This document shows, piece by piece, positions 19,794 through 32,331 of a DNA stretch of 34,346 bases. How positions within the stretch are numbered: the stretch's first letter is position 1; each line of letters begins with the position of its first letter. The position numbers were made by a program, and so were the translations under genes. Below the pieces are notes generated by a model. That model saw only the letters and a list, made by a program, of their open reading frames with translations. It ran no database searches and was not told where the DNA came from. This DNA comes from Ruegeria marina (lineage in GTDB: Bacteria > Pseudomonadota > Alphaproteobacteria > Rhodobacterales > Rhodobacteraceae): contig NZ_FMZV01000027.1 of the NCBI RefSeq assembly GCF_900101475.1, forward strand, positions 1 to 34,346. Reading direction: 5' to 3'.

Positions 19794-20378
19794 ATGCCAG
19801 ACCGCATGACCATCGTCGTTGTCGAAGAGGACCGGGACCGCGCAATCGCCATCGTCGATGCGCTTCATGCCTCGGGGTCCTATGACGTGCATGTCATCGG
19901 CAATCATTCCAGCCTTGCCCGGCGTATCGCCGCCCTTGCTCCGGACGTGGTGCTGATCGACATCGACAACCCCACCCGCGACATGCTTGAGGAACTTACG
20001 CTGGCCTCGGGTCCGCTGGAGCGGCCCGTGGCCATGTTCGTCTCCGGCGCGGCCGGCGGTCTGGCGCGCGAAGCGGTGGAGGCGGGGCTTTCGGCCTATG
20101 TCGTGGACGGGCTGAAACCCGAGCGGCTGAAGCCGGTGCTGGATGCTGCCATTGCGCGGTTCCAGATCGTCCGGCAGATGCGCAGCGAACTGGCCGAAAC
20201 CCGCCGCGCCCTGGAGGAACGCAAGGTCATTGATCGCGCCAAAGGCCTATTGATGAAGGCCCGCGGTCTGCAGGAGGAAGAAGCCTACGCGCTGCTGCGC
20301 AAGGCCGCGATGGATCAGGGCCGGCGCGTGGCCGAGGTGGCCGAGGCGCTGGTCACGGCTTCGGGACTTTTGTCATGA
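19794..20378 (+). CDS. nasT: NasT: ANTAR-domain antitermination regulator of nitrate assimilation
   Basis: 194 residues. An N-terminal receiver-like domain (IVVVEEDRDRA with acidic residues at 11-13, LIDIDNP with D56, FVSG, K113 region) is followed by a coiled segment and a C-terminal ANTAR domain (about 132-190, ERKVIDRAKGLLMKARGL and EEEAYALLRKAAM). ANTAR domains bind RNA with paired hexaloop hairpins and prevent formation of a terminator. NasT is held inactive by NasS when nitrate is absent. The stop overlaps the nasS start by 4 bp. A leader with the expected RNA layout lies at 21661-21773, before nrtA. Confidence 0.93.
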   Translation: MPDRMTIVVVEEDRDRAIAIVDALHASGSYDVHVIGNHSSLARRIAALAPDVVLIDIDNPTRDMLEELTLASGPLERPVAMFVSGAAGGLAREAVEAGLSAYVVDGLKPERLKPVLDAAIARFQIVRQMRSELAETRRALEERKVIDRAKGLLMKARGLQEEEAYALLRKAAMDQGRRVAEVAEALVTASGLLS

Positions 20379-21547
20379 AGACCGTCACCCTTCCTGTCGC
20401 CTATGTGCCGCTGGTGGACGCCGCGCCGCTGATCGTCGCCTGCGAAATGGGCTTCGCCCACGAAGAGGGGATCGAACTGGATCTTGTCGCCGCCCCTTCA
20501 TGGTCCTCGGTGCGCGACATGCTGGCGTTCGGTCGGGTGGATGCAGCGCATCTACTATCGCCGGTGCCCGTTGCCATGGCGCTGGGGCTGGGTGGTGTTG
20601 CACGACCGCTCGCGGCGGTCTCTGTCCTCTCGGTCAACGGCAACGTGATAGGTGTCGGCCCGGCTCTGGAAGCGCGTCTGCGCGGCATCGGCTACACGTT
20701 CGATTTCGCGGATGCTGCCGGTGCGGCAGCGGCGCTGGCCCGCGTGGCGGATCGGCCGCTGGTCTTTGGCGTTCCATTTCCCTTCTCGATGCATGTCGAA
20801 TTGCTGCACTACTGGCTCGAAGCCTCCAACCTGTCGCGCGTGGGGTTCGAGGTGCGCACGGTACCGCCGCCGCTGATGGCGCAGGCACTGGCAGCGGGCG
20901 ACGTCGATGCCTTCTGCGTCGGCGAGCCCTGGGGGTCCGTGGCTGTCGAGAAATGCTCCGGCGCGCTGCTTCTGCCGGGTAAGGCGATCTGGGCGTTCGC
21001 GCCGGAAAAGGTGCTGGCCGTGCGCACGGACTGGGCCGAGACCGAGCCGCACCTGCTGGGCAAGCTGATGCGCGCGGTCTGGCGGGCAGGGCGCTGGCTG
21101 AACGCGCCAGAGCGGCGGACATCGGTGGCCGAGATTCTCTCCAAGAAAGCCTACCTCGACCTTCCCTCAGAGGTGATCGACCGGGCGTTGACCGGGCATT
21201 TCACCGTGTCGGGTCAAGGCGAACAAAGGCAGGTCGAAGGTTTCATCGAGTTTCACGACGGGGTGGCGAACTTTCCCTGGCGCAGCCAGGCGAAGTGGAT
21301 CGCACACCGTCTGGCCACCCGCTACGGGCTCGATCCGGCCACCGCGAGGGCGAAGGCGGGAGAGGTCTTTCGCAGCGACATCTACCGCCGCGAGATGTCG
21401 GCGACGCATGTCGATTTCCCCGGCGCATCGGAAAAGCTTGAAGGCTCGATTCGCCAAGCCACGGCCGTCGCCTCGCAGAAAGGACAGCTCTCGCTGCTGC
21501 CGGATGCCTTCTTCGACGGGCGTATTTTTGATCCAGACAAGGTGTAG
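20375..21547 (+). CDS. nasS: NasS: cytoplasmic nitrate sensor, NrtA/CmpA-like
   Basis: 390 residues related to NrtA-type nitrate-binding proteins ([61 protein letters not shown]) but with no signal peptide, so it is cytoplasmic. Family knowledge: NasS binds NasT without nitrate and releases it when nitrate binds. Translationally coupled to nasT by a 4-bp overlap. It parallels the exported NrtA at 21823 over most of its length; both have the FCVGEPW/YCVGEPW strand. A hairpin begins 7 bp after the stop codon. Confidence 0.93.
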
Positions 21548-21553
21548 TGCCAA

Positions 21554-21576
21554 AAAATGCGGCAGTGCAGCATTTT
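21554..21576 (+). terminator. Hairpin directly after nasS
   Basis: AAAATGC (21554-21560) pairs with GCATTTT (21570-21576) around a 9-nt loop, just past the nasS stop. The T run is part of the stem, so it may be a weak terminator or a 3'-end stabiliser for nasTS. Read-through into the nrt leader would remain possible. Confidence 0.3.
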
Positions 21577-21660
21577 GCCGGGGTTGAATCGGGTTCCGGA
21601 GCCATTCCGCTCGAAAAACCCTTTGATCGAAGCGCGGGTTTGACTGATGAATGGGTAGAA

Positions 21661-21680
21661 GGCGCGCAATGGAGTGCGCC
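21661..21680 (+). promoter_or_regulatory. ANTAR target hairpin P1 in the nrtA leader
   Basis: GGCGCGC (21661-21667) pairs with GTGCGCC (21674-21680), with one G-U wobble, closing the hexaloop AATGGA (21668-21673). A at loop position 1 and G at position 4 match the known ANTAR-protein RNA target. It lies 39 nt before the terminator and 142 nt before the nrtA start. Predicted binding site of NasT together with P2. Confidence 0.72.
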
Positions 21681-21712
21681 TCGCGAAATTCTCCCGCAGA
21701 CTGGGATTATCC

Positions 21713-21726
21713 GAGCAACGCCGCTC
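21713..21726 (+). promoter_or_regulatory. ANTAR target hairpin P2, overlapping the terminator arm
   Basis: GAGC (21713-21716) pairs with GCTC (21723-21726), closing the hexaloop AACGCC (21717-21722), again with A at position 1 and G at position 4. Bases 21720-21725 are also the outer 5' arm of the terminator, so P2 and the full terminator exclude each other. The stem is only 4 bp, as expected for a hairpin that needs NasT to be stabilised. Confidence 0.68.
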
Positions 21727-21773
21727 ACTCTTCGTTCAGACAGAACGAAAAGTGCAGCGGCTTTTTGCGTTTT
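21720..21773 (+). terminator. Leader terminator (attenuator) before nrtA
   Basis: GCCGCT (21720-21725) pairs with AGCGGC (21756-21761), then CACT with AGTG, then TTCGTTC with GAACGAA around an AGACA loop; a run TTTTTGCGTTTT follows. This is a long intrinsic terminator 50-60 nt before nrtA. It should stop transcription of the nitrate operon unless NasT captures hairpins P1 and P2. Confidence 0.85.
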
Positions 21774-21822: not shown

Positions 21823-23190
21823 ATGAAGTCTATCCTCTTTGGCCTCGCGGCCTCCACCGCTCTCGTCAGCCCGGCCTTCGCCGAGATGCTGGAGCTTGAA
21901 AAGGACGAGCTGACCTTCGGGTTCATCAAGCTTACTGACATGGCCCCGCTCGCCGTGGCCTACGAACGGGGCTATTTCCTCGAAGAGGGCCTGTTCGTGA
22001 CCCTCGAGGCGCAGGCCAACTGGAAGGTGCTGCTGGACGGCGTGATCGGTGGCCAACTGGACGGCGCGCATATGCTGGCCGGTCAGCCGCTGGCCGCCAC
22101 CATCGGTTTCGGCACCGAGGCGCATATCATCACTCCCTTTTCGATGGACCTGAATGGCAACGGCATAACCGTGTCGAACGAGGTTTGGGAGAAGATGCTG
22201 CCGCATATCCCCAAGATGGATGATGGCCGCCCGCAGCACCCGATCAGCGCCTCTGCACTTGCCCCGGTGGTCGAGGAGTTCAAGGCCGAGGGCAAGCCCT
22301 TCAACATGGGCATGGTCTTTCCGGTGTCCACCCATAACTATGAGCTGCGCTACTGGCTGGCGGCCGGTGGTCTGCACCCCGGCTACTACAGCCCTGAAAA
22401 CGTCACCGGGCAGATTGGCGCCGATGTGTTCCTGTCCGTGACCCCACCGCCGCAGATGCCTGCCACCCTCGAGGCCGGCACCATCTCCGGATACTGCGTA
22501 GGCGAGCCCTGGAACCAGCAGGCGGTATTCAAGGGGATCGGCGTCCCGGTCATTACCGATTACCAGTTGTGGAAGAACAACCCCGAGAAGGTCTTCGGCA
22601 TAACCGCGGAGTTTGCCGAGCAGTACCCGAACACCACGTTGGCCGTGACCAAGGCACTGATCCGCGCCGCGATCTGGCTGGACGAGAACGACAACGCCAA
22701 TCGCCCCGAGGCGGTGCAGATCCTGTCGCGGCCCGAGTACGTGGGCGCCGATTACGATGTCATTGCCAACTCGATGACCGGCTTCTTCGAGTTCGAAAAG
22801 GGTGACAAGCGGGACATCCCCGATTTCAACGTCTTCTTTCGCTACAACGCGACTTACCCCTACTACTCGGACGCGGTCTGGTACCTGACCCAGATGCGCC
22901 GCTGGGGCCAGATCTCCGAGGCCAAGCCGGATAGCTGGTACGCCGAGGTCGCCAAGTCGGTCTACCGACCCGACATCTACCTGCAGGCCGCGCGGATGCT
23001 GGTCGATGAGGGGCTGGCCAACGAGGCCGATTTCCCCTGGGAAAGCGACGGCTACAAGGAGCCGACCCCGGCGGCCGACATCATCGACGGCATTCCCTAC
23101 GACGGCCGCACGCCCAACGCCTACCTCGACAGCCTGCCGATCGGCCTGAAGGGCGAGCAGACCGTCGTCGGCACCGAGGTAAAGAGCTGA
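21823..23190 (+). CDS. nrtA: Nitrate/nitrite ABC transporter substrate-binding protein
   Basis: 455 residues from the ATG at 21823 (GGAAAGAAGG upstream). The frame is open further 5' through the leader, but that part is not coding. A signal peptide ([20 protein letters not shown]) is followed by the NrtA/CmpA core: [71 protein letters not shown], and the C-terminal Trp/Tyr-rich [19 protein letters not shown]. It captures nitrate or nitrite in the periplasm for NrtBC. First gene after the ANTAR-controlled terminator. Confidence 0.94.
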
Positions 23191-23197
23191 GCAGGCG

Positions 23198-23241
23198 GCT
23201 GGGCGGGACGGCGCGCGCGCAAGCACGACGCCCCGCCCAGC
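23198..23241 (+). repeat. Strong stem-loop between nrtA and nrtB
   Basis: GCTGGGCGGG (23198-23207) pairs perfectly over 10 bp with CCCGCCCAGC (23232-23241); the loop is rich in GC dinucleotides and no T run follows. A second small hairpin (CGGGG/CCCCG) follows near 23253-23271. Such elements after binding-protein genes commonly stabilise the upstream mRNA so that more binding protein than permease is made; that role is inferred. Confidence 0.65.
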
Positions 23242-23308
23242 GTGCCTGGCTCGGGGCGCTCCCGACCCCGGACGCCCAACACAACTCACCCTTCCGAGGA
23301 TCGCACCC

Positions 23309-24391
23309 ATGACAACCGTCGACCCGAATTTCACAGAGAGCGCCGACCGGGAAGCCCGCCGTGCGCGTCTCTTCACCCGCATCAATGCCGCCGACAAGTG
23401 GTTCCAGGTACTGGGGCTCAGCTGGATAACCCCGGCGATCAAGGCCCTGGCCGGCGACAACCCACGCGCCCAGATGAAGGAACTCTGGCGCCTTCTCGCC
23501 GTGCCGCTGCTGGCCATCGCGGGGTTCCTCGTGCTCTGGGGCACGCTGGCGCCGCAGGTGCAGACCTCGCTGGGCGCCGTGCCCGGGCCGGCCGCCGTTT
23601 GGGAAGAGGCCGTCAACCTGCACGCCGACGCGCTGGCCAAATCCGAGAAGCGCGAGAAATTCGAGGCGATGGTCGCCCAGCGTAACGAAAAGCTGATCGC
23701 GGCCGGCAAGTCGGACGAAGTCAAGGAGGTTGCCTATACCGGCGCTCCGAGCTTCTACGAGCAGATATGGACTTCGATCAAGACCGTCTTCTTCGGCTTC
23801 TTCATCGGCACCGTGATCGCCATCCCGCTGGGCATCATGGCGGGCCTGTCGCCCACCGCCAACGCGGCGCTGAACCCGCTGATCCAGATATTCAAGCCCG
23901 TCTCGCCGCTGGCCTGGCTGCCCATAGTGACCATGGTCGTCTCGGCGGTCTACGTGACCAATGACGGTTTCTTCGCCAAGTCCTTCCTGATCTCGGCCAT
24001 CACCGTGACGCTCTGTTCGATCTGGCCGACGATCATCAACACCGCACTGGGCGTGGCCTCGATCGACAAGGACCTGATCAACGTCTCCAAGGTGTTGAAG
24101 ATGGGCACCTGGACCAAGATCACCAAGCTGGTGCTGCCCTCGGCCCTGCCCTTGATCTTCACGGGTCTGCGTCTCTCGCTGGGCGTGGGCTGGATGGTGC
24201 TGATCGCTGCCGAGATGCTGGCGCAGAACCCCGGCCTGGGCAAGTTCGTCTGGGACGAGTTCCAGAACGGCTCCTCCTCGTCGCTCGCCAAGATCATGGT
24301 CGCGGTCTTCACCATCGGCATCATCGGCTTCCTGCTGGATCGCGTGATGTACGCGCTGCAGTCCCTCTTCACCTTCTCGAACCAACGGTGA
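23309..24391 (+). CDS. nrtB: Nitrate ABC transporter permease
   Basis: 360 residues. A cytoplasmic N-terminal tail leads into a first helix (LAVPLLAIAGFLVLWGTLAP). A ~75-residue charged loop (about 90-155) follows, then the BPD-type permease domain: TVFFGFFIGTVIAIPLGIMA, the LAWLPIVTMVVSAVYV helix, and the ABC-coupling region VLKMGTWTKITKLVLPSALP in place of the classic EAA motif. GAGGATCG precedes the ATG. The stop (24389-24391) overlaps the GTG alternative start of the ATPase gene and lies just before its ATG. Confidence 0.94.
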   Translation: MTTVDPNFTESADREARRARLFTRINAADKWFQVLGLSWITPAIKALAGDNPRAQMKELWRLLAVPLLAIAGFLVLWGTLAPQVQTSLGAVPGPAAVWEEAVNLHADALAKSEKREKFEAMVAQRNEKLIAAGKSDEVKEVAYTGAPSFYEQIWTSIKTVFFGFFIGTVIAIPLGIMAGLSPTANAALNPLIQIFKPVSPLAWLPIVTMVVSAVYVTNDGFFAKSFLISAITVTLCSIWPTIINTALGVASIDKDLINVSKVLKMGTWTKITKLVLPSALPLIFTGLRLSLGVGWMVLIAAEMLAQNPGLGKFVWDEFQNGSSSSLAKIMVAVFTIGIIGFLLDRVMYALQSLFTFSNQR

Positions 24392-24396
24392 TCCAG

Positions 24397-26094
24397 ATGA
24401 CTGTCATTGAAATCAAGAATGTCTCGAAAAACTTCGGCGAAGGCACTCATGCGACACAGGTGCTGAAGGACATCAACCTCTCGATACGGGAAGGCGAGTT
24501 CCTCGTCCTGCTGGGTTTCTCCGGCACGGGAAAGACCACGCTCATCAACCTGATGGCCGGGTTGGAAAAGCCGACCAAGGGCAGCGTGACCTTCAAGGGC
24601 AAACCCATCGAGGGCCCCGGACGCGAACGCGGTGTGATCTTCCAGAACTACTCGTTGATGCCCTGGCTGACGGTCAGCGGCAACGTGCAGCTTGCGGTAG
24701 ACACCGTATTTCCCGAGCTTTCCAAGAACAAACGCGCGGAAAAGGTCGCCCATTATGTGCAGATGGTCGGCCTGAGCCACGCTGCAACGCGCCGCCCGGC
24801 GGAGTTGTCCGGCGGTATGCGCCAGCGGGTGAACGTGGCTCGGGCGCTGGCCATGAGCCCCGAGGTCCTGCTGCTGGACGAGCCGTTGTCCGCGCTGGAT
24901 GCCCTGACCCGCGCCAATCTGGCGGACGAGATCGAGAAGATCTGGGAAGCTGAAAACAAGACCTGCGTGCTTATCACCAATGACGTGGACGAGGCCATCC
25001 TGCTGGCTGACCGCATCATCGCGCTGAACCCGGACGGGACACTGGGCGAGCAGTTCGATGTGGAAATCGCCCGCCCCCGCGAACGCGGCGCCATGAACCA
25101 CGACCCGTATTTCAAGACCCTGCGCGGCAAGGTCACCCAGTACCTGATGGATGTTGGCATCGAGGCCAAGGCCGAGGGGTCCCGGCTGCTGCCCAACGTC
25201 ACCCCGATCCACGGCGTTCCGAAGGCCGTGCAGCAGGCGCAGGAGGGACTGATCGACGAGCGCTTCCTGGACTTCAGCCAATTGCACAAGATCTACCCGA
25301 CACCCAAGGGACCGCTGACCGTTGTGGAGGACTTCAACCTCAAGATGGATCGCGGCGAGTTCATCTCGCTGATCGGCCACTCGGGCTGCGGCAAATCGAC
25401 GGTTCTGACCATGGCTGCCGGTCTGAATGCGATCTCCAAGGGCGCGATCCGCCTTGACGGCTACCACGTGGAAGGCGCCGACCCCGAGCGTGCGGTGGTC
25501 TTCCAGTCGCCCTCGCTCTTCCCTTGGCTGACAGCGCGCGAGAACTGCGCCATAGGTGTCGACAAGGTCTATCCCGGCGCCAGCCGGGCAGAGCGGCAGG
25601 ACGTGGTGGACTACTACCTCGAACGTGTCGGCCTTGCCGATGCGATGGACCGGCCTGCGTCTGACATGTCGAACGGCATGAAGCAGCGGGTGGGCATCGC
25701 GCGGGCTTTCGCGCTCTCGCCCAAGCTGCTGCTGCTGGACGAACCCTTCGGGATGCTGGACAGCCTGACGCGCTGGGAACTGCAGGAAGTGCTGATGGAG
25801 GTCTGGGACCGCACCAAGGTCACCGCCATCTGCGTCACGCATGACGTGGACGAGGCGATCCTGCTGGCCGACCGCGTGGTGATGATGACCAACGGCCCGC
25901 AGGCCACCATCGGCGAGATCATCGACGTCGACCTGCCGCGCCCACGCTCTCGCAAGGCGCTGCTCGAACACCCGGACTATTACACCTACCGCGCCCAGGT
26001 TCTCGATTTCCTCGAGGAATACGAACACGGCAAGCATGGCAAGAGCGAAAGCAAGGCCGGAGCGACGAAATCGCAGAAGCGGAAAGCCGCCTGA
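24397..26094 (+). CDS. Nitrate ABC transporter ATPase, two fused nucleotide-binding domains (NrtC+NrtD-like)
   Basis: 565 residues from the ATG at 24397 (a GTG at 24388 is an alternative). NBD1: Walker A GFSGTGKT (40-47), signature LSGGM (137-141), Walker B VLLLDEP (157-163), but the H-loop reads ITNDVDEA, Asn195 in place of His. NBD2: Walker A GHSGCGKST (327-335), signature degenerate as MSNGM (424-428), Walker B LLLLDEP, and a normal H-loop VTHDVDEA (His482). An ABC site combines the Walker/H-loop of one domain with the signature of the other. So one site (NBD2 Walker + NBD1 signature) looks intact and the other doubly degenerate. The Lys-rich tail (about 545-565) is probably disordered. 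Confidence 0.93.
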   Translation: MTVIEIKNVSKNFGEGTHATQVLKDINLSIREGEFLVLLGFSGTGKTTLINLMAGLEKPTKGSVTFKGKPIEGPGRERGVIFQNYSLMPWLTVSGNVQLAVDTVFPELSKNKRAEKVAHYVQMVGLSHAATRRPAELSGGMRQRVNVARALAMSPEVLLLDEPLSALDALTRANLADEIEKIWEAENKTCVLITNDVDEAILLADRIIALNPDGTLGEQFDVEIARPRERGAMNHDPYFKTLRGKVTQYLMDVGIEAKAEGSRLLPNVTPIHGVPKAVQQAQEGLIDERFLDFSQLHKIYPTPKGPLTVVEDFNLKMDRGEFISLIGHSGCGKSTVLTMAAGLNAISKGAIRLDGYHVEGADPERAVVFQSPSLFPWLTARENCAIGVDKVYPGASRAERQDVVDYYLERVGLADAMDRPASDMSNGMKQRVGIARAFALSPKLLLLDEPFGMLDSLTRWELQEVLMEVWDRTKVTAICVTHDVDEAILLADRVVMMTNGPQATIGEIIDVDLPRPRSRKALLEHPDYYTYRAQVLDFLEEYEHGKHGKSESKAGATKSQKRKAA

Positions 26095-26139: not shown

Positions 26140-26571
26140 ATGCAGGACACCCAGATCAGCCTCGTTCAGGCCAGTTTTGCCAAGGTCGTGCCGATCGCCG
26201 ACACGGCGGCCGGCCTCTTCTACGCGGACCTTTTCGAGACCGCGCCCGAGGTGAAGCCCTACTTCCGCGGCACCGACATCACCGAGCAGGGCAAGAAGCT
26301 GATGATGACCCTCGGGACGGTGGTAAACGGGCTACACAACCTGGACGCCATCGTGCCTGTCGCCGAGCAGCTTGCCATACGGCACGTCGCCTATGGTGTG
26401 CAGGCAGAAGATTACGCCAAGGTCGGCGCCTCGCGTCTGCGCACGCTGAACAAGGGGCTTGGCGACGCCTTCCCCCCCGAGGTCGAGGCGGCCTGGACCG
26501 CCGCCTACACCACGCTGTCCGGTGTGATGATCGCGGCGGCCTATCCGACAGAAACGCAAACTGCCGACTGA
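26140..26571 (+). CDS. Single-domain globin of the nitrate operon
   Basis: 143 residues with the globin pattern of the flavohaemoglobin/VgB branch: VQASFAKVVPIADTAAGLFY with aromatic B10 (F27/Y28), VKPYFRGTDI with the invariant CD1 Phe (F42), and the proximal haem ligand in LAIRHVAYGVQAEDY (H82). There is no reductase domain, so it would need a partner to re-reduce its iron. Within a nitrate/nitrite reduction operon it probably detoxifies nitric oxide formed by side reactions or delivers electrons; this is inference. GGGAAACG precedes the ATG; the gap to the ATPase gene is 45 bp. Confidence 0.92.
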   Translation: MQDTQISLVQASFAKVVPIADTAAGLFYADLFETAPEVKPYFRGTDITEQGKKLMMTLGTVVNGLHNLDAIVPVAEQLAIRHVAYGVQAEDYAKVGASRLRTLNKGLGDAFPPEVEAAWTAAYTTLSGVMIAAAYPTETQTAD

Positions 26572-26607: not shown

Positions 26608-26916
26608 ATGGAAACGAAATTGGAAGCGGACATCCGGATGCAGACCTTCATCAAGGTCCGCACGGTCCGGGTGCCGGAAGGCGAGGAACCGACGCTCGCC
26701 GATGGCAACTGCTGCGCCTTCGCGGCCTTCGAAGAGGGTTCGCGCGCGACGCGGTTCGCCCAAGGCGAGGGGCTGCCCGGCAAGGCGGTGGCTACCGGCC
26801 ATCCCGTTGTCGAGAGCTGGGCGCCTGGTGGCGTGACCGCGGGATCCGAGACGATGGTCGCCCTGCCGATCCATCACGACCGAGACATCGCGCACATCGT
26901 GGCGTGGAATTGCTGA
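26608..26916 (+). CDS. Small GAF-like domain protein in the nitrate operon
   Basis: 102 residues, no signal peptide or membrane segment. The layout resembles a minimal GAF domain: N-terminal helix, a central FAAFEEGSRATRFAQGEGLP turn (the GxGLxG-type GAF element, here GEGLPGKAVATGHPVVE), then ETMVALPIHHDRDIAHIVAW as the last two strands. Two adjacent cysteines (GNCCAF) and a C-terminal Cys could bind metal or sense redox. GGAG lies close to the ATG, and nirB starts 14 bp after the stop. GAF domains bind small ligands; a role in nitrate, nitrite or NO sensing is a guess from context. Confidence 0.75.
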   Translation: METKLEADIRMQTFIKVRTVRVPEGEEPTLADGNCCAFAAFEEGSRATRFAQGEGLPGKAVATGHPVVESWAPGGVTAGSETMVALPIHHDRDIAHIVAWNC

Positions 26917-26930
26917 GAGGACGAAACGAC

Positions 26931-29363
26931 ATGCAGAAACTGGTCGTCATCGGAGCCGGCATGGCCTCGGGCAGGGTGCTTGAACACCTGCGCGAGACTG
27001 CGCCGGACGCTTACGAAATCACGCTGTTCAACGCCGAACCGCGTGGCAATTACAACCGCATCATGCTCTCGCCTGTGCTCTCGGGAGAAAAATCATACCC
27101 TGAGATCGTCACGCATGACGATGACTGGTACGCCGCCAACAAGGTGACCTGCCGCTTCGGCGAGCATGTCGTCAGGATAGACCGCGAGGCGAAGCAGGTG
27201 CACGGCCAGAAAGGCGCGGTCCCCTATGACAAGCTCCTGATCGCCACCGGCTCGGCCCCGTTCATTATCCCCGTTCCGGGCAAGGATCTGCCGGGCGTCG
27301 TGGCCTATCGCGATCTCGACGACACCAACGCCATGATCGCGGCGACAGGCAAATCCGGCGCGCGGGCCGTCGTGATCGGCGGCGGGCTGCTGGGGCTGGA
27401 AGCGGCGGCAGGCCTGCGGCTGAGGGGCATGGAGGTCACCGTCCTGCACCTGATGGGCCATCTGATGGAGCGTCAGCTGGACGAGGCGGCGGGCTACCTG
27501 CTGAAGAAGGACCTGGAAAGGCGCGGCATCACCGTGCTGACGAACGCCTCGACCAAGGCGATCCTTGGCGAAGACCGGGCCGAGGCGGTACTGCTGGAAG
27601 ACGGCACCGTCCTGGATGCCGATCTGGTGGTGATGGCGGTCGGCATCCGGCCGGAGACCCGGCTTGCCGTCGATGCGCATCTCGAGGTTGGCCGTGGCAT
27701 CGAGGTGAACCCGCAGATGTTGACCTCCGATCCCGACATTCTCGCCGTCGGCGAATGCGTCGAACTGAACGGCCAGCTTTTCGGGCTTGTCGCGCCGCTC
27801 TACGATCAGGCCAAGGTCGCGGCAGCCACACTGACGGCGCAGGCGGCCGAGTTCGTACCCCGCGAACTGTCGACCAAGCTCAAGGTCACCGGTTGCGACC
27901 TGTTCAGCGCCGGCGACTTCGCCGAGGGCGAGGGGCGCGAGGACATCGTCTTTCGCGACCCGGCGCGCGGCGTCTACAGGCGCCTGGTGATCGAAGGCAA
28001 CCGGCTGATCGGTGCGGTGATGTACGGCGACACCGCCGACAGCAACTGGTTCTTCGGCCTGATCAAGGACGGCGCGGACATCGAGGAGATGCGCGAGACG
28101 CTGATCTTTGGCCCCGCCTGCCAGGGAGGTGGTCAAGCGGACCCTCTCTCAGCCGTTGCAGCCTTGCCGCCTGAGGCGGAAATCTGTGGCTGCAACGGCG
28201 TCTGCAAGGGAACTATCGTCAAGGCCATCGAAGGCGGGGCAGGGGACCTTGGCGCGTTGCGCGCCATTACCAAGGCCTCGGGCTCTTGCGGCACCTGCAC
28301 CGGGCTAGTGGAACAGGTTCTCCAGGTCACACTGGGTGACGATTTTCAAAGACCCGCGGCGCAGCCCATGTGCGGCTGCACCGAACTGACCCACGAGGAC
28401 GTTCGTCTGCTGATCAAGACCAAGGAGCTCAAGAGCCAGGAGGCGGTCTGGCAGGAGCTTGGCTGGAAGACGGTCAACGGCTGCCATGCCTGCCGCCCGG
28501 CGGTGAACTACTACCTGCTGGCCGACTGGCCGCTGGAATACAAGGACGACCCGCAAAGCCGCTTCGTCAACGAGCGCAATCACGCCAACATCCAGAAGGA
28601 CGGCACCTATTCCGTCATGCCGCGGATGTGGGGCGGAATGACCACGCCACAGGAGTTGATCGCCATCGCGCAGGCGGCCGAAAAATATGGCGCCACGGTC
28701 AAGGTGACCGGCGGCCAGCGGATCGACCTGCTGGGCGTGCGCAAGGAGGATCTGCCGGGAATCTGGTACGATCTCAACCAGGCCGGAATGGTTTCGGGCC
28801 ACGCCTACACCAAGGGTCTGCGTACGGTGAAGACCTGCGTCGGTTCGGACTGGTGCCGCTTCGGCACGCAGGATTCAACGGGCCTGGGCATCAAGCTGGA
28901 AAAGAAGCTCTGGGGCTCGTGGACGCCGCACAAGGTCAAGCTGGCAGTGTCCGGCTGCCCGCGCAACTGCGCCGAGGCCACCTGCAAGGACGTGGGCATC
29001 ATCTGCGTCGACTCCGGTTACCAGGTCGGAGTGGCAGGGGCTGCGGGCATGGACGTCAAGGAGACCGAGCGTCTTGTCGACGTCCGGACCGAGGAGGAGG
29101 CGATCGAATGGACGACCGCCTTCATCCAGCTCTACCGCGAGAACGCCAAGTACCTCGACCGGCCCTACAAGTGGGTCGCCAAGGTCGGGCTCGACTGGGT
29201 CAAGGAGGTGCTGGGCAATGACGCCGAGCGCACCGCGCTCGTCGAACGCTTCGACGTGTCGCAGAGCGTCTACCAGAAGGATCCCTGGGCCGAGCGGGCC
29301 AGTCCGGAGGCGGCCCGCCGCTTCCAGCCCCTCGCCGATTTTACCAAGGAGGCTGCGGAATGA
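26931..29363 (+). CDS. nirB: Assimilatory nitrite reductase, large subunit
   Basis: 810 residues from the ATG at 26931 (GAGAGG upstream). Order: FAD/NAD(P)H oxidoreductase domain (VVIGAGMASGRVLEHL at the N-terminus, VVIGGGLLGLEAAAGL near 145). Then the first BFD-type [2Fe-2S] segment (CGCNGVCKGTI ... GSCGTCTGLVEQ, about 418-463) and the second (CGCTELTHEDV ... GCHACRPAVNYYL, about 479-525). Last comes the sirohaem/[4Fe-4S] sulfite/nitrite reductase part with CVGSDWCRFG and SGCPRNCAEATC (about 635-686). It reduces nitrite to ammonium with six electrons from NAD(P)H. Sirohaem is required, yet no sirohaem synthase gene is in the window. Overlaps nirD by 4 bp. Confidence 0.96.
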   Translation: MQKLVVIGAGMASGRVLEHLRETAPDAYEITLFNAEPRGNYNRIMLSPVLSGEKSYPEIVTHDDDWYAANKVTCRFGEHVVRIDREAKQVHGQKGAVPYDKLLIATGSAPFIIPVPGKDLPGVVAYRDLDDTNAMIAATGKSGARAVVIGGGLLGLEAAAGLRLRGMEVTVLHLMGHLMERQLDEAAGYLLKKDLERRGITVLTNASTKAILGEDRAEAVLLEDGTVLDADLVVMAVGIRPETRLAVDAHLEVGRGIEVNPQMLTSDPDILAVGECVELNGQLFGLVAPLYDQAKVAAATLTAQAAEFVPRELSTKLKVTGCDLFSAGDFAEGEGREDIVFRDPARGVYRRLVIEGNRLIGAVMYGDTADSNWFFGLIKDGADIEEMRETLIFGPACQGGGQADPLSAVAALPPEAEICGCNGVCKGTIVKAIEGGAGDLGALRAITKASGSCGTCTGLVEQVLQVTLGDDFQRPAAQPMCGCTELTHEDVRLLIKTKELKSQEAVWQELGWKTVNGCHACRPAVNYYLLADWPLEYKDDPQSRFVNERNHANIQKDGTYSVMPRMWGGMTTPQELIAIAQAAEKYGATVKVTGGQRIDLLGVRKEDLPGIWYDLNQAGMVSGHAYTKGLRTVKTCVGSDWCRFGTQDSTGLGIKLEKKLWGSWTPHKVKLAVSGCPRNCAEATCKDVGIICVDSGYQVGVAGAAGMDVKETERLVDVRTEEEAIEWTTAFIQLYRENAKYLDRPYKWVAKVGLDWVKEVLGNDAERTALVERFDVSQSVYQKDPWAERASPEAARRFQPLADFTKEAAE

Positions 29364-29692
29364 ACTGGATCGATATCGGTGCCGTCGAGGATGTCCCACT
29401 GCGCGGGGCGCGGCTGGTCAAGACGCATGAAGGTTGTGTCGCGGTGTTCCGCACCGCCGAGACGGAGGTCTTTGCCGCCTCGGACACCTGCCCGCACAAG
29501 GCCGGCCCCCTGTCTGAGGGGATCGTTCACGGGCAGAAGGTGACCTGCCCGCTGCACAACTGGGTTTTCGATCTGAATACGGGTCTTGCGCAGGGTGCCG
29601 ACGATGGCCGGATCGAGGTCTATCCGGTACAGATCGTGGAGGGCCGCATCCTGCTTGATGTCTCGTTCCTCGCCAAGAGGAGTGCGGCCTGA
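29360..29692 (+). CDS. nirD: Nitrite reductase small subunit with an intact Rieske site
   Basis: 110 residues forming a Rieske fold. The [2Fe-2S] ligands are present: CPHKAGPL (Cys and His) and CPLHNWVF (Cys and His) about 20 residues later. In some enteric NirD proteins these ligands are lost, so here the subunit should carry a cluster and take part in electron transfer to the sirohaem centre of NirB. Start ATG at 29360 overlaps the nirB stop (ATGA). The stop shares one base with the nasA start. Confidence 0.95.
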   Translation: MNWIDIGAVEDVPLRGARLVKTHEGCVAVFRTAETEVFAASDTCPHKAGPLSEGIVHGQKVTCPLHNWVFDLNTGLAQGADDGRIEVYPVQIVEGRILLDVSFLAKRSAA

Positions 29693-32331
29693 TGGATGAC
29701 GGGGGCGCTTGCGAACAGAAGACGGTGCGTTCGACCTGCCCCTATTGCGGGGTGGGCTGCGGCGTGCTGCTGACGCCCGACGGCCAGGGCGGGCTCGACG
29801 TGCGCGGCGATCCCGACCATCCGGCGAACCGCGGGCGACTCTGTTCGAAAGGATCGGCGCTGGGCGAGACCCTCGGCCTTGGTCAGCGCCTCATGGCGCC
29901 GCGCATCCGGGGGCTGGACGTCTCGTGGGAGACGGCGCTGCAGAAGGTGGCTGACACCTTTCGCGAGACCATTGCCGAATACGGCCCCGACAGCATCGCA
30001 TTTTATGTCTCCGGTCAGTTGCTGACCGAGGATTACTATGTCGCCAACAAGCTGATGAAAGGTTTCATCGGCTCGGCCAATATCGATACCAACTCGCGCC
30101 TGTGCATGGCCTCCACCGTTGCCGGGCACAAGCGCGCCTTCGGCACCGACACTGTGCCCGGCACCTACGAGGATCTCGATGAGGCGGACCTGATCGTCCT
30201 CGTGGGCTCCAACCTCGCCTGGTGTCATCCGGTCCTCTACCAGCGCATCCTCGCCGCCCGGAGGGCGCGTGGCACACGGCTTGTCGTCATCGATCCGCGC
30301 CGCACCGCCAGTTGCGATGGTGCCGAGATGCACCTTGCGCTTGAACCGGGCACGGACGTTGCCCTGTTCAACCGCCTGTTCCGCGAAATCTACGCAGCAG
30401 GCGCGGTGGACCAGACCTATCTCCGCCACACCGAGGGCTTCGACGAGGCCCTGCGCACCGCCTGCCGTGAAGATTCTTCCGTCACGGGGCTGTCCGAACA
30501 GCAGGTCAGGGACTTCTGCCGTCTCTGGATCGGCACCGAGAAGGTGGTCACCATCTTCAGCCAGGGTGTGAACCAGTCCAGCTCGGGCTCGGACAAGGTC
30601 AACGCCATCCTCAACTGCCATCTCGCCGCCGGCCGTATCGGCAAGCCGGGCTGTGGCCCCTTCTCGGTCACGGGGCAGCCGAATGCCATGGGCGGGCGCG
30701 AGGTAGGCGGTCTGGCCAACATGCTTGCCTGCCACCTCGACCTGGAAAACGCCGACCACCGCGCCGCCGTGCGCGATTTCTGGTCCGCTCCCGCGGTACC
30801 CGACGCACCGGGGCTGAAGGCCGTCGACATGTTTCGCGCCGCGGGCGACGGGCGCATCAAGGCGCTCTGGATCATCCATACGAACCCCGTCGTCTCGATG
30901 CCCGAGGCCGACGCCGTGCGCGATGCCATCGCCAACTGTCCCTTCACCGTGATCAGCGACATCACCGGCGCCACCGATACCGCCCGCCTCGCCGATATCC
31001 TGCTGCCTGCCACGGCCTGGGCCGAGAAGGACGGCACCGTGACCAATTCCGATCGCACCGTCAGCCGGCAGCGCGCCGCCCTGCCGGCGCCGGGATTGTC
31101 CCGCCCGGACTGGGCCATCCTGGCCGAGGTCGGCCGCCGCATGGGCTGGACCGCCGCCTTCGATTACCAGTCGCCCGCCGAGATCTTCCGCGAATACGCA
31201 GCCCTTTCGGGCATCGCCGAGACCTTCGGGCGCGATTTCGACATCTCTGGCCTCGCAGCCCTCAGCGAAACGGAATACGAGACGCTTGCCCCGACACGCT
31301 GGCCGATCACGACGGGGCGGACCGGCGGCCGTTTCTTCGCCGATGGCCGGTTTTTCCATCCCAACGGCAAGGCCAGGCTCCTCCCGGTCGCCTTCCGTCC
31401 GCCCGCCGCGAGGACCGTGCCGCGCTACCCTTTCCGGCTGAACACCGGGCGCACCCGTGACCAATGGCACACCATGACGCGCACAAGCCTGTCGCCGCGC
31501 CTTGCCGCCCATCTGGCCGAGCCTTTCCTGGAGATCCATCCACAGGACGCGCAGGCGGGAAGCATCGCCGCTGCCGATCTCGTCCGTGTCGAAAGCCCTC
31601 ATGGCAGCGCCATCCTGCGCGCTCGCATCACCGACAGCGTCAAGCCTGGTCAGGTATTTGCCCCGATTCACTGGACCGGCGAGACCGCGCCATCGGCGCG
31701 CATCGACGCGCTGGTCGCCGCGATCACCGATCCCGTCTCGGGCCAGCCGGAAAGCAAGGCCAGCGTCGTCAACGTCACCCGCCTGCAAGCGGCATGGTAC
31801 GGCTTTGCGGTCTCGACTGGCGGCATTATCCCGAACGCCGATTACTGGGCACGCGCGACCACCATGCGGGGCGTCCGCGCGGAACTTGCGGGTTTGACCC
31901 CGGTCGACGACTGGGAACAGGCGGCGCGCGAGCTGTTTGGCCTGCCGGAGGCGGAATTGACCTCCGTTCTCGATCCGGCGCGCGGCAGCGCCCGCATCGC
32001 CCTTCGCAAGGACGGATGCCTGGTGGCGGCGCTTTTCGTTTCGCCACAGCCGGTGGCCGTGATGCGAGACTACCTCGCCGGTCTGCCGGATGTCCCTGAT
32101 CACAGCCTGCTCTCCGGGCGTTCGCCCGCCGACAGGCCCGATCCCGGGCCGATCCTGTGTTCTTGTTTCGGGGTCGGTATCAACCGTATCCTCGCGGCCA
32201 TCGAAACCCAGGGCCTGATGAACGTCGACGCCATCGGGGCGGCGCTGCAGGCGGGCACCAACTGCGGCTCCTGCCGCCCCGAACTGGCCGACCTGCTGGC
32301 AATGGCCAATACGAGGCAAGCCGCCGAATGA
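29692..32331 (+). CDS. nasA: Assimilatory nitrate reductase catalytic subunit
   Basis: 879 residues. The N-terminal [4Fe-4S] ligands are C16, C19, C23 and C51 (STCPYCGVGCGV ... GRLCSKG). The molybdenum ligand is C138 (NSRLCMAS). MGD-binding regions include FSQGVNQSSSGSDKVNAI, the GQPNAMGGREVGGLANML segment and ATAWAEKDGTVTNSDRTVSR. The molydopterin dinucleotide domain follows (LNTGRTRDQWHTMTRT). The C-terminus adds a BFD-like [2Fe-2S] domain (CSCFGVGINRI ... GTNCGSCRPEL, from about 822), which likely accepts electrons. No twin-arginine signal, so cytoplasmic. It starts one base before the nirD stop ends and overlaps a short ORF by 4 bp at its end. Confidence 0.96.
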   Translation: MDDGGACEQKTVRSTCPYCGVGCGVLLTPDGQGGLDVRGDPDHPANRGRLCSKGSALGETLGLGQRLMAPRIRGLDVSWETALQKVADTFRETIAEYGPDSIAFYVSGQLLTEDYYVANKLMKGFIGSANIDTNSRLCMASTVAGHKRAFGTDTVPGTYEDLDEADLIVLVGSNLAWCHPVLYQRILAARRARGTRLVVIDPRRTASCDGAEMHLALEPGTDVALFNRLFREIYAAGAVDQTYLRHTEGFDEALRTACREDSSVTGLSEQQVRDFCRLWIGTEKVVTIFSQGVNQSSSGSDKVNAILNCHLAAGRIGKPGCGPFSVTGQPNAMGGREVGGLANMLACHLDLENADHRAAVRDFWSAPAVPDAPGLKAVDMFRAAGDGRIKALWIIHTNPVVSMPEADAVRDAIANCPFTVISDITGATDTARLADILLPATAWAEKDGTVTNSDRTVSRQRAALPAPGLSRPDWAILAEVGRRMGWTAAFDYQSPAEIFREYAALSGIAETFGRDFDISGLAALSETEYETLAPTRWPITTGRTGGRFFADGRFFHPNGKARLLPVAFRPPAARTVPRYPFRLNTGRTRDQWHTMTRTSLSPRLAAHLAEPFLEIHPQDAQAGSIAAADLVRVESPHGSAILRARITDSVKPGQVFAPIHWTGETAPSARIDALVAAITDPVSGQPESKASVVNVTRLQAAWYGFAVSTGGIIPNADYWARATTMRGVRAELAGLTPVDDWEQAARELFGLPEAELTSVLDPARGSARIALRKDGCLVAALFVSPQPVAVMRDYLAGLPDVPDHSLLSGRSPADRPDPGPILCSCFGVGINRILAAIETQGLMNVDAIGAALQAGTNCGSCRPELADLLAMANTRQAAE

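Follow-up and report, generated by a model that had tools for sequence, protein, structure and literature searches.

The window analysed here, a stretch of 34,346 nucleotides from Ruegeria marina (contig NZ_FMZV01000027.1, positions 1 to 34,346), encodes on its plus strand two adjoining genes, nasT (19794..20378) and nasS (20375..21547), which overlap by 4 bases and are followed by genes of nitrate assimilation. The first of these, nrtA (21823..23190), is succeeded by nrtB (23309-24391), a fused nrtCD (24388-26094), a globin gene (26140-26571), a gene for a 102-residue protein (26608-26916), nirB (26904-29363), nirD (29360-29692) and a gene for a molybdopterin oxidoreductase (29692-32331) read as the assimilatory nitrate reductase. 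The eight-gene operon proposed in a preliminary description of this DNA thus corresponds to eight same-strand genes downstream of the leader, from nrtA to the molybdopterin oxidoreductase. The fused nrtCD has an NCBIfam match above the cut-off; those of nrtB and the oxidoreductase fall below it and nrtA has none, and these three have been named from Pfam domains and context. The 102-residue protein, encoded between the globin and nirB, matches no family in Pfam (E <=0.001) or NCBIfam (E <=1e-10), and a small sensor or a redox partner would be a candidate function in a nitrate operon. A very strong hairpin (-63.3 kcal/mol including flanks, z -3.3) is predicted for the 118-nt gap between nrtA and nrtB (23191-23308), and perhaps stabilises the mRNA in favour of nrtA.

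NasT comprises a receiver-like domain and an ANTAR RNA-binding domain. The latter matches the Pfam family ANTAR (PF03861) with 75.5-78 bits, and the match to Response_reg, at 25 bits, is below the cut-off of 30.2. NasT is the one ANTAR protein detected by Pfam search in the 4.99-Mb genome. Its relatives in the PDB include 1s8n ('putative antiterminator'), EutV (6wsh/6ww6) and the nitrate regulator 4akk. In an alignment with EutV, equated by hand counting with a two-residue offset to the residues named in the available part of PMC8934654, the equivalents of R142, K143, E160, Y164, R168, M172 and R177 are kept in NasT, so that RNA-contacting positions retain Arg, Lys, Glu, Tyr and Met, and K147, N173 and R175 are replaced by Arg, Asp and Gly respectively. 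NasS is an NrtA-like protein (Pfam NMT1_2, 209 bits) and no signal peptide is recognised by eye at its N-terminus. A nasT of the REC-ANTAR type, its receiver domain scoring below the Pfam cut-off, beside an NrtA-like nasS is the arrangement of a NasS-NasT system, and by analogy with the system described in the accessible text of PMC3795266 NasS would be the nitrate sensor.

Between the end of nasS (21547) and the start of nrtA (21823) lie, in this order and on the plus strand, a hairpin P1, a middle hairpin Pm, a hairpin P2 and an intrinsic terminator. P1 (21660-21681) has 8 pairs, one of them G-U, and a hexaloop AATGGA (21668-21673); P2 (21713-21726) has 4 pairs and a hexaloop AACGCC (21717-21722). 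Both loops carry A at position 1 and G at position 4, referred to below as A1 and G4. The terminator (21720-21766), recognised by folding, consists of a stem at 21720-21761, with -26.1 kcal/mol including flanks (z -4.6 against shuffles), and the U-tract TTTTT at 21762-21766. The outer 5' arm of the terminator is made, in the predicted fold, of P2 loop positions 4-6 (GCC) and the 3' arm of P2, and for this reason P2 and the terminator are mutually exclusive. The preliminary description had placed P1, P2 and a terminator before nrtA, with A1 and G4 in both hexaloops and with a 5' outer terminator arm common to P2, and on all these points it agrees with our analysis. Its further statement that the P2 loop bases CGCC form part of the terminator arm holds for GCC but not for the preceding C (C21719), which is unpaired in the fold. 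Its view of a complete two-hairpin leader had to be given up, as a third hairpin (21692-21706) occupies the 31-nt gap between P1 and P2.

The fold of the window sequence from P1 to P2, taken by itself, is unexceptional (z -0.97 against shuffles); the evidence from comparison with relatives, given below, is strong. A terminator scan of the window did not list the leader terminator, probably because of bulges in the stem. An Rfam scan of the window gave 0 families at threshold, and assignment of the leader to an Rfam family was dropped, there being none at threshold and only tRNAs in the six loci fetched.

The middle hairpin, Pm (21692-21706, plus strand), is predicted to fold as UCCC-GCAGACU-GGGA with its loop G4 at 21699; a G-U closing pair would alternatively give the pentaloop CAGAC. 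In the former fold it has a heptaloop that starts with G and is without A1. Pm begins 10 nt after P1 and ends 6 nt before P2. The folding of the 31-nt linker into Pm is unexceptional for the single sequence (z -0.23 against shuffles).

A promoter-like pair TTGATC - 17 nt - GATGAA (21623..21651, plus strand) has been read from the sequence upstream of P1. Among 116 distinct leaders, 63 have the corresponding TTG 43-46 bases upstream of the P1 loop, and the remaining 4-base bins hold 1-19; these 116 derive from 157 leaders, 127 of which have the P1-P2 pattern and could be aligned on the P1 loop. This conserved -35-like TTG would put the start just before P1, as the inclusion of P1 in the leader by the preliminary description presupposes. 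As the -10 box is weak, we can only infer that the RNA starts near the base of P1, at about 21658-21660, and a consensus promoter scan revealed no plus-strand site before P1. A GC-rich dyad GCNGC-N1-4-GCNGC is also present downstream of the nasS stop and upstream of the promoter-like site, at 21559-21571 of the window (GCGGCAGTGCAGC). Such a dyad precedes P1 in 73 of the 116 distinct leaders (200 mononucleotide shuffles: mean 1.3, max 6) at varying positions, and is perhaps a regulator site.

The conservation of the leader has been analysed in 198 genomes of the host's family, where a search for NasT gave 82 strong matches (E <=2e-25; next 4e-10). Loci were read in 78 of the 82 genomes, with G008, G021, G122 and G166 outside the set; the nrtA leader of G008 was added later as L290. 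An alignment produced with MAFFT, referred to as alignment A1, includes 70 of the 78 leaders. The eight left out are L030, in which the leader is cut off, L038 and L062, in which P2 was not found, and L041, L043, L044, L056 and L059, which belong to another leader type. In alignment A1, loop A1 is present in 68/70 and G4 in 70/70 leaders, for P1 and P2 alike, counts which the alignment may favour, nine P2 anchors (L002, L005, L015, L025, L037, L046, L049, L067 and L078) having been set by hand from A1/G4 scans that are not letter-blind. A letter-blind rule found P2 in 64 of the 78 loci, with A1 in 61/64 and G4 in 64/64, where the 64 include L041, L043 and L037, the last misplaced onto the middle hairpin. 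By the same rule P1 was found in 51 loci, with A1 in 44/51 and G4 in 46/51, several of these picks (such as L029, L034, L042, L055 and L058) lying off the usual place.

Changes on both sides of a pair are seen in 6/7 pairs of P1 and 2/4 pairs of P2 among the 70 leaders. None of 500 shuffles reaches the covariation score of the leader, and 87.6% of the cells of the whole structure are paired, versus a shuffle mean of 72.3% and 26.3-42.5% when the structure is slid along the alignment. Covariation across relatives is strong for P1, and the two hexaloops noted in the preliminary description are conserved among the relatives.

Judged by sequence comparison, Pm is a real conserved hairpin. The gap between P1 and P2 exceeds 14 nt in 70/70 leaders, and in the 66 with Pm it is 20-50 nt (median 33); the remaining 4/70 have no middle hairpin under the hairpin rule. 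RNAalifold on alignment A1 predicts P1 and P2 and leaves out Pm, as middle loops of six and seven bases place its pairs in different columns, and Pm was for this reason examined by alignment-free shuffles, arm shuffles and given structures. A linker hairpin with a score of >=10 occurs within 32 nt before P2 in 55/70 leaders (200 shuffles: mean 23, max 32). The mean number of Pm pairs per row is 3.21 in the 70 leaders, no more than 2.84 being reached when the 3' side is shuffled 1000 times. In the 26 rows without a CCC-ending 5' arm the mean pairing is 2.54, versus a shuffle mean of 1.62 and a top value of 2.58; eight of these rows have >=4 pairs (shuffles <=7) and ten have >=3 (shuffles <=10). 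The outer pair of Pm in 54 leaders is U-A in 22, C-G in 7, A-U in 2 and G-C in 1, with 20 unpaired and 2 gapped. At the core pairs C-G predominates, each of them has one or two double changes, and in fixed columns 11-21 of the 70 rows are unpaired there.

The Pm loop ranges from 5 to 8 bases among the leaders. Its position 4 is G in 64/70 leaders and another base in 6/70, its position 1 is A in 36/70, and it is a full A1/G4 hexaloop in 9/70. The step from P1 to Pm is 9-14 nt in 45/66 leaders with Pm and that from Pm to P2 is 5-7 nt in 42/66. Both steps fall within 5-12 nt in 34/66 and within 3-13 nt in 45/66, so the two-step spacing rule is only a tendency. L039 and L045 have a short P1-P2 gap (20-21 nt) and keep a middle hairpin 1-3 nt after P1. 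Another leader type of the host's family, seen in L041, L043, L044, L056 and L283, has full A1/G4 hexaloops as its middle hairpins, namely AAAGAT, AAAGAT, AAGGGC, AAGGAT and AAGGAC.

A second alignment, A2, comprises 54 of the 70 leaders. The window, L002 and L005 were held out as test rows and 13 poorly aligned leaders (L031, L049, L053, L064, L065, L066, L068, L071, L072, L073, L075, L076 and L077) were dropped, by which a model from A2 is flattered. The model of 54 leaders without the window scores the window with 63.3 bits (E 1.5e-14), the next match there being 10.1. Model R2, used with stricter filters in the search of the 198 genomes, matches 68/82 host-family genomes with NasT and 0/116 without it, an association whose positive half is partly built in because the 54 sequences of R2 come from NasT genomes. 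Out of 501 loci 80 named ones were kept, with NasS in 79 and the P2 pattern in 76. Further NasT targets in the host's own genome were considered among 8 extra matches of model R1 (E <=10) and rejected: the best four, of 20.5 (E 0.06), 17.7, 15.0 and 14.4 bits, lie inside long open frames and show by eye no P2-terminator arrangement.

R2 also matches second or displaced sites in several genomes, eight of which have been read. Four of these copies (L284, L285, L286 and L287) lie about 50-60 nt before genes of the siroheme-synthase type: NCBIfam assigns uroporphyrinogen-III methyltransferase to the gene after L284 and CysG to those after L285 and L286, and the protein start encoded after L287 resembles siroheme-synthase types by eye. 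A NirB-like protein follows L288, and proteins that are nrtA-like by eye follow L290 and L291. P1, a middle hairpin and P2 are all present in 5/8 copies (L284, L286, L287, L288 and L290), among them three of the four that precede siroheme-synthase-type genes of related genomes; in L285 and L291 the hairpin rule finds no unbroken P1. The L289 match was set aside as looking like chance, being located in a transporter-like gene without P1 and without a T-run. The leaders before siroheme-synthase-type genes suggest a small NasT regulon that supplies the cofactor of nitrite reductase.

Outside the host's family, 74 genomes with NasT (E limits 1e-30 for the class and 1e-25 for the phylum) provided 60 loci within ~5 kb, of which 26 have a match to two hexaloops with a terminator. 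The shortest linker is 2-11 nt in 20/26, 25-42 nt in 5/26 and unclear in L169. Three consecutive A1/G4 hexaloops are found in 4/26 of the matches (L182, L183, L186 and L187). An Ensifer leader has two closely spaced hairpins.

Among the closest known systems is the nasA leader of Paracoccus denitrificans (PMC3795266, PMC5424462), also of the host's family and with nasT-nasS directly upstream. Like the window, this leader (L281) has three hairpins; here all three loops are G4 hexaloops (AACGGC, AATGAT and GACGAT), one following the other. It differs from the window in that two hairpins, HI and HII, are named in the available sections of PMC5424462, that the downstream gene is nasA rather than nrtA, and that by eye it has no U-tract terminator of the window's type. 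A base-exact matching of HI and HII failed, the hexaloops being at -155, -130 and -107 from the nasA ATG versus the published -137 and -91 (PMC5424462, as far as accessible).

The eut leaders of Enterococcus faecalis, targets of EutV, resemble the window in their short stems with A1/G4 hexaloops and in a second hairpin that excludes an intrinsic terminator; their linkers, as given in the accessible parts of PMC3369931 and PMC8934654, are of 5-12 nt, whereas P1 and P2 of the window are 31 nt apart with a conserved hairpin inside. The nasF leader of Klebsiella oxytoca, bound by NasR, is likewise a nitrate-controlled ANTAR antitermination system with two hairpins, and SELEX with NasR gave A1/G4 loops closed by C-G, like the loop bases of the window (PMC7496416). 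NasR differs in being a one-component NIT-ANTAR sensor, and the available text of PMC7496416 mentions no third hairpin. Actinobacterial ANTAR RNAs also have dual stem-loops with A1/G4, but the linkers accepted for them are 2-25 nt in the portion of PMC8164766 at hand and the 31 nt of the window lie outside this filter. The Rfam family rli56 (RF01483) gives a weak match to P2 and the terminator (18.3 bits, aligned GAGCAACG..GCUC), which, far below the gathering score of 47 and with an E-value of 2.8, is only a hint. The open-licence literature yielded no report linking rli56 with ANTAR and none of a three-hairpin ANTAR target.

The leader of the window shares with described ANTAR targets two A1/G4 hexaloop stem-loops, a second hairpin (P2) that overlaps and excludes an intrinsic terminator, compensatory change that keeps the stems (6/7 pairs in P1, 2/4 in P2) and an ANTAR protein, NasT, in the same genome. 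Its P1-P2 linker is outside the described range (5-12 nt for eut, 2-25 nt for the actinobacterial filter). As this is a described range and not a definition of the family, the leader is classed as a variant.

On these grounds the leader very probably governs the nitrate assimilation operon by antitermination under NasT control, in a predicted three-hairpin form. That the nrt-nir-nas operon is subject to antitermination by NasT is well supported at the sequence level by the nasT-nasS genes, the sole ANTAR match of the genome, the conserved A1/G4 hexaloops, the covariation of P1 and the mutually exclusive terminator, and also by the published experiments in Paracoccus denitrificans, where nitrate releases NasT from NasS and NasT binds the leader RNA (PMC3795266, in the part available). 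Antitermination by NasS-NasT is itself known biology, established in Paracoccus and other bacteria. The preliminary reading of a NasT switch accordingly stands as regards antitermination, in view of gene order and conservation, but not as regards a plain two-hairpin motif, since P1 and P2 are spaced beyond the range known from measurements on EutV and are separated by a conserved third hairpin.

The RNA would start just before P1, and P1, Pm and P2 are predicted to fold in turn as the chain grows. In folds of the growing chain, computed every 3 bases, the best structure comprises these three hairpins while the 3' end lies between 21726 and 21756, and the terminator once it has reached 21759-21762; NasT must therefore take hold of P2 quickly. 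If NasT is not active, the terminator would, by the folding prediction, displace P2 and transcription would stop before nrtA. Nitrate or nitrite, as shown in Paracoccus, would free NasT from NasS, and NasT may then grip the G4 hexaloops and keep P2 folded, so that RNA polymerase could read the eight genes. The eut linkers recognised by EutV are 5-12 nt long; linkers of 3 or 14 nt both strongly lower induction (PMC3369931), and a linker lengthened by 20 nt abolishes antitermination (PMC8934654), as the accessible text of these papers reports. Pm would split the 31-nt gap into two steps, 10 nt and 6 nt long, neither of which leaves the natural eut range, and its role may thus be that of a stepping site for NasT or that of a folded spacer. 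Since Pm of the window is a heptaloop without A1, a NasT contact there is only a candidate.

The role of Pm can be read in several ways. That it is a folded spacer only, which shortens the distance from P1 to P2 for one NasT dimer and whose loop is left untouched, has in our estimate little short of an even chance. A loop of 7 (or 5) nt in the window and in many close relatives, rather than the hexaloop preferred by ANTAR proteins, agrees with it, as does the CCC/GGG stem being the most constant part of Pm; a 31-nt unpaired linker should moreover fail, because EutV fails with linkers of 14 nt or lengthened by 20 nt. A pure spacer, however, needs no fixed loop base, and loop position 4 is G in 64/70 leaders, with full A1/G4 hexaloops in 9/70 and in L041, L043, L044 and L056. 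These same observations favour Pm as a third ANTAR contact, in which NasT dimers would move from P1 by way of Pm to P2 on the emerging RNA, a reading which is plausible though we hold it tentatively. It agrees with the successive-binding model for EutV and with the tendency of the two steps to 9-14 nt (45/66) and 5-7 nt (42/66), and the three A1/G4 hexaloops in a row of 4/26 out-family matches point in the same direction, though some of these may be chance (~5% per 45 nt by rough reckoning). The variation of the Pm loop from 5 to 8 bases and the presence of A1 in only 36/70 leaders speak against it. For the heptaloop Pm of the window we lean slightly towards the spacer role. The wider proposition that NasT targets of the host's family are three-site ANTAR RNAs spanning ~65 nt, with Pm a true contact, is possible but rather doubtful; a NasT dimer would then step along the three G4 loops or engage them, or a form of about six subunits would do so. 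A NasT form of roughly six subunits has reportedly been seen in Paracoccus.

Pm and P2, which are 6 nt apart in the window, are spaced as P1 and P2 are in 20/26 out-family matches, and might from this be taken as the working pair, with P1 dispensable or serving another purpose. We regard this as improbable, for P1 is the better-conserved and strongly covarying hairpin, and in P. denitrificans the upstream hairpin HI is needed: its change or replacement severely lowers expression and abolishes growth on nitrate (PMC5424462, in its accessible part, HI not being exactly placed on the sequence). A NasT-independent leader, be it an ordinary attenuator of constitutive action or an element of translational control, is most improbable, being opposed by the gene neighbourhood, the conservation of the loops and the co-occurrence with NasT, and by the binding of NasT to the leader published for P. 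denitrificans (PMC3795266, available sections).

While the basic reading of this leader is already known, its three-hairpin, long-span layout is a variant for which no description was found in the open-licence literature. The leader bears on the unsettled issue of whether ANTAR dimers engage their two loops simultaneously or one after the other. The crystal structure of EutV is said to indicate that one dimer is unable to bind both loops of the same RNA, and hairpin spacing was reportedly found to be critical in the work on EutV. With a natural, conserved target whose span is more than double what is tolerated and whose gap contains a conserved hairpin, the spacer and the stepping stone can be told apart in a single experiment. 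The layout may also explain why two-hairpin search models could miss such leaders, and genes of the siroheme-synthase type are added as likely targets of NasT in related genomes. The three-site reading, if true, would extend the two-hairpin model of ANTAR recognition.
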